Source: Kineococcus aurantiacus
GTDB lineage: Bacteria; Actinomycetota; Actinomycetes; Actinomycetales; Kineococcaceae
NCBI RefSeq assembly: GCF_013409345.1
Contig: NZ_JACCBB010000001.1
Span: 1,302,001-1,366,000 of the forward strand
Direction of reading: 5' to 3'
Length of the DNA stretch: 64,000 nt
The position numbers and the translations under genes were made by a program. Positions 2,345-7,129 of this stretch are shown here, piece after piece (position 1 is the stretch's first letter; each line of letters opens with the position of its first letter). Below the pieces are notes generated by a model. The model was given only the letters and a program-made list of their open reading frames with translations. It had not been told where the DNA came from and did no database searches.

Positions 2345-2935
2345 CTACCGCGAGGAGCGCAGCGCGTCCTCGACGGAGACGACGCCGTCGCGGTAGCGGC
2401 GGGTGATCTCGTCGGTGCAGGCGTCCATGGCCTGCTGCACGCGGTGCCGGTCGGCCGACAGCTCCTGCTCGAGCGCCACGAGCCGGGTCCGGGCGGCGGC
2501 CAGCTGGGCGTCGTCCATGGCGGTGAGGTCGGACAGGTGCGGGTCGGCGACGGCCAGCTCGGCCCGGCGCCGGTGCTCACCGACGCGGGAGGGCTCGACG
2601 GAGCTGAAGCGGCCCATGCCGTGGTCGGTGCGGCGCGGGTCGGCCAGGACGTCGGTGAGCTTGGCGACGAGCTCGGCGTCGGAACGGGCGTGCCGGACGT
2701 CGGCGGCGCCGTCGGTGCCGGCGCGGCGCTGCTCCTCGGCGCCCAGCAGGTCCAGGCGGCCCTGGATGAGCCGCCGGGCGTAGGACAGGTCGGCCTCCTC
2801 CTGCTCGGCGACGGTGCGGTGCTCGCGGAGGGTGGGCAGGTCCATGTCCTGCAGCCCGTCGAGGAAGTCGGGGGCGAGGACCTTGTCGAGGGCCCGGCGC
2901 CCACCCGCCTGGTACCCGCTGACCTGCTCGTCCAC
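2345..2935 (-). CDS. rsiG: RsiG-like c-di-GMP-responsive anti-sigma factor
   Basis: RsiG is the Streptomyces anti-sigma factor that holds WhiG (a FliA-type sigma) when loaded with a c-di-GMP dimer. Its signature, E-x3-S-x2-R-x3-Q-x3-D, occurs twice in this protein with every position conserved: E47/S51/R54/Q58/D62 (EADLSYARRLIQGRLD) and E156/S160/R163/Q167/D171 (EQELSADRHRVQQAMD), one in each of two long helices predicted to pair as a coiled coil. The central segment is variable. The chosen start, GTG 2935, has a strong GGGGGAGG site 5 bases upstream; the frame stays open to GTG 2983, which has no good ribosome site. Its length (196 aa) matches RsiG. No sigma gene is adjacent, as in Streptomyces, where rsiG and whiG are unlinked. 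Older annotation calls such proteins aerial mycelium formation proteins. Confidence 0.88.
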   Translation of the reverse strand: MDEQVSGYQAGGRRALDKVLAPDFLDGLQDMDLPTLREHRTVAEQEEADLSYARRLIQGRLDLLGAEEQRRAGTDGAADVRHARSDAELVAKLTDVLADPRRTDHGMGRFSSVEPSRVGEHRRRAELAVADPHLSDLTAMDDAQLAAARTRLVALEQELSADRHRVQQAMDACTDEITRRYRDGVVSVEDALRSSR

Positions 2936-3040: not shown

Positions 3041-4129
3041 TCAGGGTGCGACGACGAGTTCCTGCGCGGCCGCGATCCGGCGCTGCTCGGCCCCCTCGGT
3101 GCCCGACCCGGCCACGACGTGCAGCCGGGCGTCGACCGGCAGGGACCGCTTGACGACGGCGAGGGCGACCGGGCCCAGCTCGTGGTGGCGGGCGGCGGTG
3201 GTCACCGACCCGACCGTGCGGTCGTCGAGGACGACGTCGTCGCCGTGCGCGGGCAGGTCGTGGGAGGAGCCGTCCAGGTGCAGCTGCACGAGGCGGCGCG
3301 GGGGCCGGCCCAGGTTGTGCACCTTCGCGACGGTCTCCTGGCCGCGGTAGCAGCCCTTGTGCAGGTGGACGGCCGTGCGCAGCCAGTCCAGCTCGTGCGG
3401 GATGGAGCGCTCGTCGGTCTCCAGGCCCAGCCGGGGCCGCCACGCCTCCACGCGCAGGGCCTCGCTGGCCCACGTCCCGGCCAGCCGGCGGCCGGCCACG
3501 GCGGCGACCAGGCCGTCGCGCGGGACGAGCACCTCGCGCCAGGGGCGGTCGGCGCCGGGGTGCTCCAGGGTCGTGACGGCCGCGTAGCTGGCGGTGTCGG
3601 CGCTGCCGCCCTCGTTCGCCGGGGTCGCCCCCGGCCACGGGTCGACCCAGACGGGCCCGGCGGCCGAGCCCGCGTCCCGGCTCGGCTCCCCCAGGACGGC
3701 GACCTCGGCGGAGACGTCGGCGATCTCGACGCGCAGGAGGAACCGCATGCGCTCCAGCCACGTCCGCAGGGCGTCGACGGTGCCGGGCTCGACGGTGAGC
3801 CAGGTGGCCTCGCCGTCCTCGTGCAGGTGCAGGGCGTGCTCGACGCGGCCGGTGGGGCTGAGCACGAGCGTCTCCGTGGACGTCCCCGCGGGCAGCCCGG
3901 TGAGGGCCTGGGAGGTGATGCTGTGCAGCCAGGACAGCCGGTCGGGCCCGGTCAGCCGCAGGACCCCGCGGTGGGACAGGTCGACGACGGCCTCACCGCG
4001 CACGAGGGCGCGCTGCTCGCCGTGCGGGTCGCCGTAGTGCCACGCGACCCCGGCGTCGGGCCCCTCGGCCGCGACGGCGCCGGGGCTGTCCAGCAGGGGC
4101 GAGCGCAGGGTCTGCGTCGGAGCGGTCAC
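3041..4129 (-). CDS. ygfZ: YgfZ/GcvT-like folate-binding Fe-S maintenance protein
   Basis: YgfZ proteins are tetrahydrofolate-binding relatives of glycine-cleavage T-protein that help maintain certain Fe-S enzymes. The family's diagnostic K-G-C-Y-x-G-Q-E motif is present as KGCYRGQE about two thirds along, preceded by the GcvT-like N-terminal domain (VVDLSHRGVLRLTGPDRLSWLHS). The start is set at GTG 4129 because AGGAGG lies 7 bases upstream at 4137-4142, overlapping the stop of the fur-family gene; an upstream in-frame start at 4165 lies inside that gene. The product has 362 residues, normal for the actinobacterial form. It is the last gene of the minus-strand run small membrane protein, nitrobindin-like, Fur, YgfZ. 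Confidence 0.88.
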   Translation of the reverse strand: MTAPTQTLRSPLLDSPGAVAAEGPDAGVAWHYGDPHGEQRALVRGEAVVDLSHRGVLRLTGPDRLSWLHSITSQALTGLPAGTSTETLVLSPTGRVEHALHLHEDGEATWLTVEPGTVDALRTWLERMRFLLRVEIADVSAEVAVLGEPSRDAGSAAGPVWVDPWPGATPANEGGSADTASYAAVTTLEHPGADRPWREVLVPRDGLVAAVAGRRLAGTWASEALRVEAWRPRLGLETDERSIPHELDWLRTAVHLHKGCYRGQETVAKVHNLGRPPRRLVQLHLDGSSHDLPAHGDDVVLDDRTVGSVTTAARHHELGPVALAVVKRSLPVDARLHVVAGSGTEGAEQRRIAAAQELVVAP

Positions 4130-4140
4130 GGTGGGGCCTC

Positions 4141-4566
4141 CTAGCGGTCGCGGCACCGCGCGCACCGCCCGCGCAGGGCGAGGTGGCCGGTGTCGACGAC
4201 GAAGTCGTCACGGGACAGGATCTCGGCGGCCATCTCCCGGGCGGGCCCGGGGGCGGCCTCGGCCACCGCGCCGCACCCGTCGCAGACCAGGTGCAGGTGC
4301 CCGCCGTGCTCGACGGCGTGGAAGGACGGCACCTTGCGGTCCAGCTGGGTGCGGGCGACCAGCCCGACCTCCTCCAGGACCGCGAGCGCCCGGTAGACGG
4401 TCGACGGGTCCACCCCGGGGGAACCGTCGCGGGGGGCGAGGTGTTCCGAGACCTCCTCGGCGCTGGCGTGCCCCAGGTCGCGGACGGCGTCGAGGATGCG
4501 CCGGCGCTGGGGCGTGGAGCGCAGCCCCCGCGCGTGCAGCAGGGCCGGCAGGTCGGTGGACGGCAC
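4141..4566 (-). CDS. Fur family metal/peroxide-responsive repressor
   Basis: A 141-residue Fur-superfamily winged-helix protein. The DNA-binding part carries STPQRRRILDAV and VDPSTVYRALAVLEEVGLV. The metal-binding hinge is HGGHLHLVCDGCG, and a second CxxC (CARC) ends the protein, so the structural zinc site with two CxxC pairs is complete. Whether it senses iron, zinc or peroxide cannot be decided from sequence. GTG 4566 gives a normal family length; the frame continues upstream into the preceding gene without a better start. It lies 23 bases after the nitrobindin-like gene and overlaps the ribosome site of ygfZ, so it is almost certainly cotranscribed with both. It is distinct from the second Fur protein at 20288, which lies next to catalase. 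Confidence 0.88.
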   Translation of the reverse strand: MPSTDLPALLHARGLRSTPQRRRILDAVRDLGHASAEEVSEHLAPRDGSPGVDPSTVYRALAVLEEVGLVARTQLDRKVPSFHAVEHGGHLHLVCDGCGAVAEAAPGPAREMAAEILSRDDFVVDTGHLALRGRCARCRDR

Positions 4567-4589: not shown

Positions 4590-5132
4590 TCAGTCGACGC
4601 GCTTGAGCCGCGCCGAGGCGTAGCTGCGCAGGGGGTGACCCTCGAGCGTGACGTCCAGGGCCCACAGCAGGTCGCCCTCGACCAGGCCGTACACGCGCGT
4701 GCCCGAGGTGTACTCGTGGGCCGTCGTCGTGCGGGCCACCACGTCGGTGCTCAGGTCGATGCGCGGGCCGCGGGCGGTGCCGGCCAGGATCTCCACGACG
4801 CCGGTGGGGTGGGTCAGCAGCACCTCGAGCTCGACGGGCCGGGGGCCGTCGGCGGGAGCGGGGCTGTCGAGGTCGACGGCCTGCGGTCGCCAGTAGCCCG
4901 TCTCGACGTCGAGGGGCTCGGTCGTCTCGCCGTCCTCGTCGAGCGCCCACGTGGTCGAGGTGTAGCTGAGGAAGTCGCGCCCGTCGTGCCCGAACTCGAC
5001 GACCTGCCCGAACCGGGTGTCGCTCTCACCGCGGGCCGGGTGGCCCAGCACGCCGGCGCCCTCCCAGCGGCCCAGGAGCCACGACAGCGGGACGAGGGCC
5101 AGCGGGGTGTCGGTGCGCAGGGGGACGGCCAC
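4590..5132 (-). CDS. Nitrobindin-like (FABP/DUF1794) beta-barrel protein lacking the haem His
   Basis: This 180-residue protein has the nitrobindin G-x-W-x-G-x-G motif near the N-terminus (GRWEGAG) and the ten-stranded barrel pattern of the DUF1794/THAP4-like family. In true nitrobindins the ferric haem is bound by a His near the C-terminus in a context resembling PLxxHLxAxLR. The equivalent stretch here is PLRSYASARLKR, which puts Tyr where the His should be. UniProt recognises a subgroup of ferric nitrobindin-like proteins without this His, and this appears to be one. The role is unknown; haem may be absent or held differently. It begins 3 bases after the 35-residue membrane protein and is followed by Fur. 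Confidence 0.82.
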   Translation of the reverse strand: MAVPLRTDTPLALVPLSWLLGRWEGAGVLGHPARGESDTRFGQVVEFGHDGRDFLSYTSTTWALDEDGETTEPLDVETGYWRPQAVDLDSPAPADGPRPVELEVLLTHPTGVVEILAGTARGPRIDLSTDVVARTTTAHEYTSGTRVYGLVEGDLLWALDVTLEGHPLRSYASARLKRVD

Positions 5133-6289: not shown

Positions 6290-7129
6290 GTGGCGCAGAT
6301 CCTCGTGTTGACGAACGCACTCGCTCCTTCGACGGAGGTGCTGCCGGCCCTCGGGCTGCTCCCGCACAGCGTGCGCGTGCTGCCCGCCGAGGCCTCGGTG
6401 CTGGTGGACGAGCCGACCTCCGACGCCGTCCTCGTCGACGGCCGCCGCGAGCTGGCCGCGGCCCGCTCCCTGTGCCGCCTGCTGCGCACCACGGGCCTGT
6501 CGCAGCCGCTGCTGCTGGTGGTCACCGAGGGCGGCATGGCGGCCGTGGCGGCCGACTGGGGCGCCGACGACGTCCTGCTCGACACGTGCGGCCCGGCGGA
6601 GCTGGACGCCCGGCTGCGGCTGGCCGCGGGCCGCTCGCGCCGGCCCGCCGAGGACACCGACCCGGCCGCGCCGTCGGAGATCCGCGCCGGGGACGTCGTC
6701 ATCGACGAGGCGGCCTACTCCGCGCGCGTGCGCGGCCGCCAGCTCGACCTGACGTACAAGGAGTTCGAGCTGCTCAAGCACCTGGCCCAGCACCCCGGCC
6801 GCGTCTTCACGCGCGCCCAGCTGCTGCAGGAGGTCTGGGGCTACGACTACTTCGGCGGCACCCGCACGGTCGACGTCCACGTGCGGCGGCTGCGCGCCAA
6901 GCTGGGCGCCGAGCACGAGAACGCCATCGGGACGGTGCGCAACGTGGGGTACCGCTTCGTCTCCTCCGGCCGCGACCTCGACGACCGGCTCGACCTGGGC
7001 GCGGGCATGGGGACGGACCTGGGCCCGGACCTGGGCAGCGACCTGGAGGAGGGGTTCGACGAGGGCCCGGCCGACGACCCGGCCGCTCCGGACGTCGACG
7101 CGCCCCCCAGCCCCTCCGGCCTCCGGTGA
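6290..7129 (+). CDS. glnR: Global nitrogen regulator GlnR (OmpR-type orphan response regulator)
   Basis: The N-terminus ([20 protein letters not shown]) and the whole C-terminal winged helix ([18 protein letters not shown], then [15 protein letters not shown]) match actinobacterial GlnR as I recall it. The receiver-like domain is atypical. Asp50 and Arg52 (VLVDGRR) are kept, as in Streptomyces GlnR, where Asp50 is not phosphorylated but stabilises the dimer. GlnR controls ammonium assimilation and nitrate genes. Beyond about residue 228 there is a long acidic, Gly/Pro-rich tail ([18 protein letters not shown]) that looks disordered and is longer than I expect for the family. GTG 6290 has an AGGAG about 6 bases upstream. 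The stop overlaps the mshD start (GTGA). The order glnR-mshD followed by phosphate genes resembles the mycobacterial locus. Confidence 0.92.

Follow-up and report, generated by a model that had tools for sequence, protein, structure and literature searches.

The rsiG gene of Kineococcus aurantiacus, found in the window (the whole 64,000-nucleotide stretch of DNA analysed here), encodes a new member of a known family. It is probable that this RsiG was vertically inherited and holds a WhiG sigma factor that is freed at low c-di-GMP, with genes for type IV pili, GGDEF and EAL proteins, sensors and a WhiI orthologue as its predicted targets.

RsiG of K. aurantiacus carries two intact c-di-GMP motifs

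The features of the window discussed here are as follows.
2345..2935 (-): rsiG, with a product of 196 aa
2750..2797 (-): first c-di-GMP motif, EADLSYARRLIQGRLD, residues 47-62, within predicted helix 33-71
2423..2470 (-): second c-di-GMP motif, EQELSADRHRVQQAMD, residues 156-171, within predicted helix 142-182
3041..4165 (-): ygfZ-like gene (TIGR03317), directly upstream of rsiG
4141..4566 (-): Fur-family regulator (PF01475, 7e-19), with a homologue near in 21/80 named rsiG loci
4590..5132 (-): THAP4-like haem-binding (FABP-like) protein (PF08768, 4.1e-45), with a homologue near in 39/80 named rsiG loci

The original prediction had named the product an RsiG homologue, and the family searches bear this out. 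Pfam PF22802 (RsiG) matched it in two stretches with 79.3 bits against a cut-off of 27 (1.7e-22), whereas a search of NCBIfam returned no match. The open frame extends to a GTG at 2983 (212 aa), and S. venezuelae RsiG (6pfj_T) aligns over nearly its full length with residues 41-208 of this longer frame (3.8e-24). The relatives favour the start at 2935, as most of them begin just 5' of a conserved GGRR stretch. Single-motif RsiGs from Rubrobacter aligned with one stretch only of the protein (0.002-0.003). The genome (5.03 Mb, two contigs) contains one rsiG.

Both motifs conform to E-x3-S-x2-R-x3-Q-x3-D without substitution, as had been claimed, and all ten contact residues are intact. When the protein was shuffled 200,000 times, at least one motif arose in 146 shuffles and two motifs in none. 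Across 15 proteins of the order, E47, S51, R54 and D62 of motif 1 are invariant and Q58 is nearly so; in motif 2, R163 and Q167 are invariant and E156, S160 and D171 nearly so. We also ran the AlphaFold comparison that the original prediction had proposed. The fold obtained without an alignment was poor (pLDDT 60.8), and we used instead an AlphaFold2 model built with 40 aligned sequences (mean pLDDT 78.6, pTM 0.70). In this model each motif lies on one of two long helices, which pack antiparallel as a coiled coil and are connected by a long linker. A Foldseek search of the PDB gave four matches at E <= 0.001, with 40-41% identity and TM values of 0.75-0.78 by target length; all four are RsiG chains from 6pfv or 6pfj. 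The predicted fold and the motifs thus fit c-di-GMP binding, and other RsiGs are described in PMC8325347 as binding c-di-GMP specifically, with micromolar affinity that is tightened by WhiG. The protein might keep its motifs but act without c-di-GMP, as a constitutive anti-sigma factor or a structural partner, and motif-less RsiG-like proteins do exist in family f9. We find this hardly credible here, given ten contact residues that are all intact and invariant or nearly so across the 15 proteins, and a WhiG that retains its own c-di-GMP contacts.

Altered motifs occur elsewhere in the order. RsiGs of family f8 (L075, L079-L082, L085) have an intact motif 1 and a motif 2 in which the final D is replaced by G or S. 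Those of family f18 (L068, L070, L087) have H for Q in motif 1 and replacements of E and S in motif 2. An asymmetric c-di-GMP site is possible in these proteins.

WhiG is the most likely partner of RsiG

The original prediction placed a FliA/WhiG-type sigma factor under the control of RsiG. The genome encodes two FliA-family sigmas over the family cut-off, as well as 67 GGDEF matches, and the predicted target can be narrowed to WhiG as the likeliest of the two, the flagellar FliA being less likely. The sigma factor at C1:4030074 scored 437.7 bits against the NCBIfam WhiG equivalog NF004935 (cut-off 343), and the second sigma, FliA, scored 136.8 bits. Downstream of whiG lie genes for an M23 peptidase, for ribosomal protein S2 and EF-Ts, and for a protein of the amino-acid-kinase family at the position of pyrH, an order that we take to be that of the Streptomyces whiG neighbourhood. 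The divergent fliA adjoins flgK, flgL and three flagellin genes. These three genes stand in tandem (G000:C1:4334580-4337450; L021:12580-15450) and encode proteins with similar N termini, and two of them have an upstream TCAAG/TCAGG-N14-GCCGATGA site.

In crystal structures, K57, G61 and R62 of WhiG (S. venezuelae numbering) touch c-di-GMP (PMC8325347). The corresponding residues are K, G and R in the K. aurantiacus WhiG and G, S and E in its FliA. Because all three are kept in WhiG and none in FliA, WhiG is the likely partner, and on this sequence evidence we regard it rather than FliA as the most likely target of RsiG.

We then surveyed 198 genomes of the order. RsiG was matched in 52 of them (in 44 over the cut-off), and WhiG-type and FliA-type sigmas were present in 66 and 54, respectively. 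WhiG was present in 50 of the 52 RsiG genomes, the two exceptions being drafts (one 62% complete, one in 580 contigs). FliA was present in 43 of the 52, so co-occurrence alone cannot separate the two sigmas. It leaves room for a scheme in which RsiG mainly controls FliA in place of a missing FlgM, with c-di-GMP directly gating flagellar genes. Such a scheme could draw on the position of fliA beside the flagellins, flgK and flgL, on K. radiotolerans, for which PMC2587704 reports no flgM, and on an extra rsiG that lies ~8 kb from a FliA gene in genome G001. We nonetheless judge it very unlikely. The K/G/R combination was found in none of the 21 FliAs examined (of 54), and the K. aurantiacus FliA, with G/S/E at these positions, gave 110-114 bits against two S. 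venezuelae WhiG chains, compared with 383-385 for WhiG. RsiG was also missing from four of the five genomes with FliA but no WhiG, and four genomes have RsiG over the cut-off and WhiG but no FliA, all of them drafts (three 90-94% complete, one 76%).

Genome G001 (a single contig of 3.1 Mb) has three rsiG-like matches, at C1:228231, 418869 and 2743813, one of them being the copy near the FliA-type sigma. No RsiG was found in the Kineococcus draft G078 (700 contigs).

The c-di-GMP contacts of WhiG largely follow the presence of RsiG

The three contact positions were examined in all 66 WhiGs. Of these, 43 came from genomes with RsiG over the cut-off, one truncated, leaving 42 readable. They read K/G/R in 40 cases, K/A/R in one and S/G/R in one, and the genome with S/G/R (G088) encodes an RsiG-like protein with neither motif. 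K57 was thus lost in 1 of 42 WhiGs accompanied by RsiG over the cut-off, compared with 21 of 23 from genomes with a weak RsiG match (kept in 0/7) or none (kept in 2/16; Fisher p 9e-14, a statistic that ignores phylogeny). The two genomes that keep K57 without RsiG are drafts (one of 700 contigs, one 73% complete), and rsiG may therefore be absent from the assembly. All of the K57 losses fall within two families of the order, f9 and f10, and may for that reason represent few events.

A pattern search for RsiG-like genes in four genomes with weak or divergent matches recovered readable proteins in two (L400, L403) and none in the other two (L401, L402). Both recovered proteins belong to family f9 and have neither motif, and the WhiGs of their genomes lack K57. 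In two families, RsiG itself and the WhiG residues that contact c-di-GMP were lost together, which offers a natural experiment on how a sigma switch sheds its second-messenger input. Families f8 and f18, which were counted over the cut-off, speak against a simple rule linking RsiG motifs to WhiG residues, because the WhiGs read there keep K/G/R despite the altered RsiG motif 2.

A sigma-28-type promoter motif is more frequent in Kineococcus than in genomes without WhiG

Scanning the K. aurantiacus genome with the canonical flagellar consensus TAAA-N-GCCGATAA, allowing two mismatches, gave 14 sites against 2 for the control with a 15-base gap and 24 against 9 with a 16-base gap. The form TCAAG-N14-16-GCCGATNA was picked out of these matches, so its counts are post hoc: 10 exact sites against 0 for the reversed pattern, and 55 against 6 with one mismatch. 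The sequence TCAAGCTCATCACCTCCATCGCCGAGCA, which resembles chemoreceptor coding sequence, recurs among the one-mismatch sites, and we therefore limited the scan of the genus to exact sites. With a gap of 14 or 15, these number 87 in 11 Kineococcus genomes (4 to 13 each, mean 7.9). The corresponding means elsewhere are 3.5 per genome in 55 others with WhiG and 2.0 in 132 without WhiG (range 0-8). Because as many as 8 sites turned up in single genomes that lack WhiG, the reversed pattern understates chance, and we took the 132 genomes, uncorrected for G+C content or relatedness, as the baseline. The regions preceding rsiG, ygfZ, whiG and fliA contained no good site, with scores of at best 7.5-8.5 of 11.5, and autoregulation of the switch is therefore not supported.

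All 87 sites were inspected, and the genes behind them were typed by similarity among these genomes and, for chosen representatives, with Pfam and NCBIfam. A WhiI-like regulator lies behind 11 sites, one in each Kineococcus genome. The next most common targets are a conserved protein with DHH-like motifs (by eye; 7/87) and a BRCT-like open reading frame (by eye; 5/87), neither of which had a Pfam match at 1e-4. In six of the seven DHH-like cases the start codon stands 7 bases past the -10 box, as in leaderless mRNAs, and in four of the five BRCT-like cases an amino-acid permease (by eye) comes next. PilT or PilT-like genes account for 6 sites and other pilus genes for 4 (PilA twice, a prepilin and PilM). 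In the K. aurantiacus pilus cluster itself, exact sites precede pilT and the prepilin gene, and sites with one mismatch precede pilA and pilM. An EAL-domain gene and its relatives lie behind 5 sites. Flagellin (2), CheB (1), FliR (1), chemoreceptors (4) and GAF-chemoreceptor hybrids (5) also appear, and most of the remaining typed sites precede GGDEF, PAS, GAF, MASE1 or NIT sensors. The GGDEF domain was confirmed in 8 of 10 downstream fragments counted as such, plus two genes of K. aurantiacus. The 18 untyped sites lie before secreted enzymes, contig ends, an rRNA leader and unknowns. This refines the suggestion of the original prediction that the target could be motility or sporangium genes: type IV pili, c-di-GMP enzymes, sensors and WhiI make up most of the output that we predict, and flagellin and chemotaxis genes have a smaller share.

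Three further observations concern individual sites or genes. The genes at L188 and L217, considered as chemoreceptors, proved to have a NIT sensor domain instead. Exact TCAAG-N14-GCCGATGA sites occur near contig ends at L137, L174, L189 and L218 in three Kineococcus genomes (two of the sites in G078); 16S rRNA begins ~310 bases downstream of the L174 site, L189 and L218 share its leader-like sequence, and these sites reflect either chance or a real input to rRNA transcription. A GGDEF match at G000:C1:378987-379346, divergent from the pilus cluster, has an in-frame TGA and is possibly a pseudogene.

The regulator behind the site shared by all 11 Kineococcus genomes is a WhiI orthologue by gene order and pocket residues

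The WhiI-like regulator of K. aurantiacus (G000:C1:4293606-4294205) has a receiver and a LuxR-type DNA-binding domain, and it is 96-100% identical within Kineococcus. An exact TCAAG-N15-GCCGATCA precedes the gene in 11/11 Kineococcus genomes, although the spacers have diverged. Its receiver is atypical by eye, with VAVADP in place of the aspartate pair and CYLVTT in place of the lysine. The signature of WhiI, as described in PMC4125116, is the absence of the receiver lysine and of one of the paired aspartates. The gene lies between an RNase-D-like gene and hemE, an order shared by L334, L335, L342 and L343.

In three genomes of a Streptomyces group, an orthologue 49-50% identical lies between the same two genes, behind a promoter-like TAAAG-N15-GCCGAAGA. 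We take this Streptomyces-group gene, which no record labels as whiI, to be whiI from its signature, its promoter and the neighbourhood of SCO6029. One of the Streptomyces-group proteins is 93.4% identical to one in Streptomyces sp. BHT-5-2, with DNA identity of 81.5% over 47% of 11 kb, and the genus of the three genomes is, judged from these matches, almost surely Streptomyces. According to PMC4125116, WhiI is at least 93% identical across streptomycetes, and in S. coelicolor its gene is transcribed from one WhiG promoter only, apparently conserved in S. venezuelae.

Across the class, promoter scores were obtained for 28 of 29 whiI loci. A score of 10 was reached in 13 of the 28, and 26 of the 28 exceeded the 95% point of their own shuffles. 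No such promoter was found before the WhiI orthologue of G034, a genome without an RsiG match and without a FliA/WhiG match at 1e-40, and G241 and G224 had no good promoter before theirs. Synteny together with the pocket residues identifies this orphan atypical response regulator of Kineococcus as the WhiI orthologue. The review PMC4255298, which includes K. radiotolerans in its genome list, states that simple motile actinobacteria with WhiG lack WhiI; the Kineococcus sequences say otherwise.

RsiG and WhiG could work together as proposed while the promoters listed above are mostly read by FliA or are partly due to chance, in which case the predicted output would be partly wrong. WhiG and FliA belong to one promoter-recognition clade (for WhiG, PMC8325347), the motif was chosen post hoc, and 18 of the 87 sites are untyped. 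A 14-base gap was found in 5 of 8 flagellar or chemotaxis sites and in 6 of the 56 typed sites before genes of other kinds (Fisher p 0.0026; 6 of 13, p 0.007, when GAF-chemoreceptor hybrids were counted), as if two readers overlapped. This hints, from few sites, that WhiG may read N15 and FliA N14 sites. We consider a mostly FliA-read or partly chance set rather unlikely, because the gene context of whiI and its N15 spacing are common to the Streptomyces group, where whiI needs WhiG (PMC4125116), and because the whiI site is exact in all 11 genomes despite the diverged spacers. The output of Rubrobacter WhiG has likewise been inferred to be pili and c-di-GMP enzymes (PMC8325347).

The neighbourhood of rsiG points to vertical inheritance

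In 51 of the 80 named rsiG loci a co-oriented ygfZ gene precedes rsiG, for example in Kineosporia, Motilibacter and Amycolatopsis. A number of the loci without it are short contigs and some are not. The closest named loci are those of K. siccus, K. rubinsiae and K. xinjiangensis. PMC8325347 reads isolated cases of twin-motif RsiGs as likely horizontal transfers. For rsiG of the window we consider such a transfer less likely, since the shared ygfZ position favours an orthologous, vertically inherited gene. The ygfZ-like gene itself is an ancestral neighbour and probably no part of the switch.

A GlnR-type regulator (window 6290-7129, +), with a PF21695 N-terminal domain and a winged helix, is divergent from the rsiG gene group. 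Genes for RsiG also occur in records labelled Spirochaetaceae, Streptomyces sp. NP160, Melainabacteria and Bifidobacterium breve (L227, L239, L247, L277, L289), which are perhaps misassigned or contaminating actinobacterial contigs.

Discussion

We propose that high c-di-GMP arms RsiG, which would then hold WhiG, and that falling c-di-GMP would free WhiG to read TCAAG-N15-GCCGATNA promoters. Its candidate targets comprise the type IV pilus cluster together with GGDEF and EAL genes, sensors and the WhiI orthologue, and the GGDEF and EAL products would feed back on c-di-GMP and so sharpen or reset the switch. With pili, c-di-GMP enzymes, sensors and WhiI as targets, the switch could determine when matrix-bound clusters give way to dispersing cells. 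RsiG would then be the same kind of messenger-controlled sigma brake by which Streptomyces times sporulation, in a bacterium that forms no hyphae and in which it would probably control surface pili, signalling enzymes and a protein related to a sporulation regulator. Taken further, the RsiG-WhiG-WhiI core may predate mycelial growth, with Kineococcus using it for c-di-GMP-gated dispersal through WhiI, pili, sensors and c-di-GMP enzymes and Streptomyces attaching sporulation genes later; we see the case for this history as evenly balanced.

The original prediction expected the gene to inform how this switch evolved. Part of that ground is already in print: PMC8325347 describes 135 RsiG homologues, 130 of them with twin motifs, and a type IV pilus role in Rubrobacter, with no Kineococcus in its main text. 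Among the papers listed by a literature search, with most subscription journals and supplements outside its scope, none dealt with RsiG or WhiI in Kineococcus. The newer part appears to be the presence of an RsiG-WhiG-WhiI core in a non-mycelial coccus and its wiring to WhiI and pili. PMC2587704 describes flagellar gene regulation in K. radiotolerans as not fully discerned, with no FlgM and 116 diguanylate cyclase domains, and PMC4255298 states that WhiG had not been analysed in simple motile actinobacteria. As an answer to the questions of both papers we propose a path that leads from c-di-GMP through RsiG and WhiG to WhiI and type IV pili.

RsiG of S. venezuelae (PDB 6pfj, 6pfv; named AmfC by the depositor) likewise carries two motifs, on its first and last long helix, and has a WhiG partner with K57, G61 and R62. 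Unlike S. venezuelae, Kineococcus is a coccus that forms no mycelium and that has flagellar genes and, besides WhiG, a flagellar FliA; type IV pili and chemotaxis genes are part of the output predicted for it. RsiG of Rubrobacter radiotolerans (PDB 7lq2, 7lq3, 7lq4) has the same motif, but only one, and forms a homodimer, whereas RsiG of the window has two. For the Rubrobacter WhiG, PMC8325347 infers control of type IV pilus and DGC/PDE genes, as we predict for Kineococcus. Streptomyces WhiI is an orphan atypical response regulator activated by WhiG, and the Kineococcus orthologue is alike in gene context, pocket residues and N15 gap, although its host has no aerial hyphae and its promoter boxes are TCAAG/GCCGATCA rather than TAAAG/GCCGAAGA.
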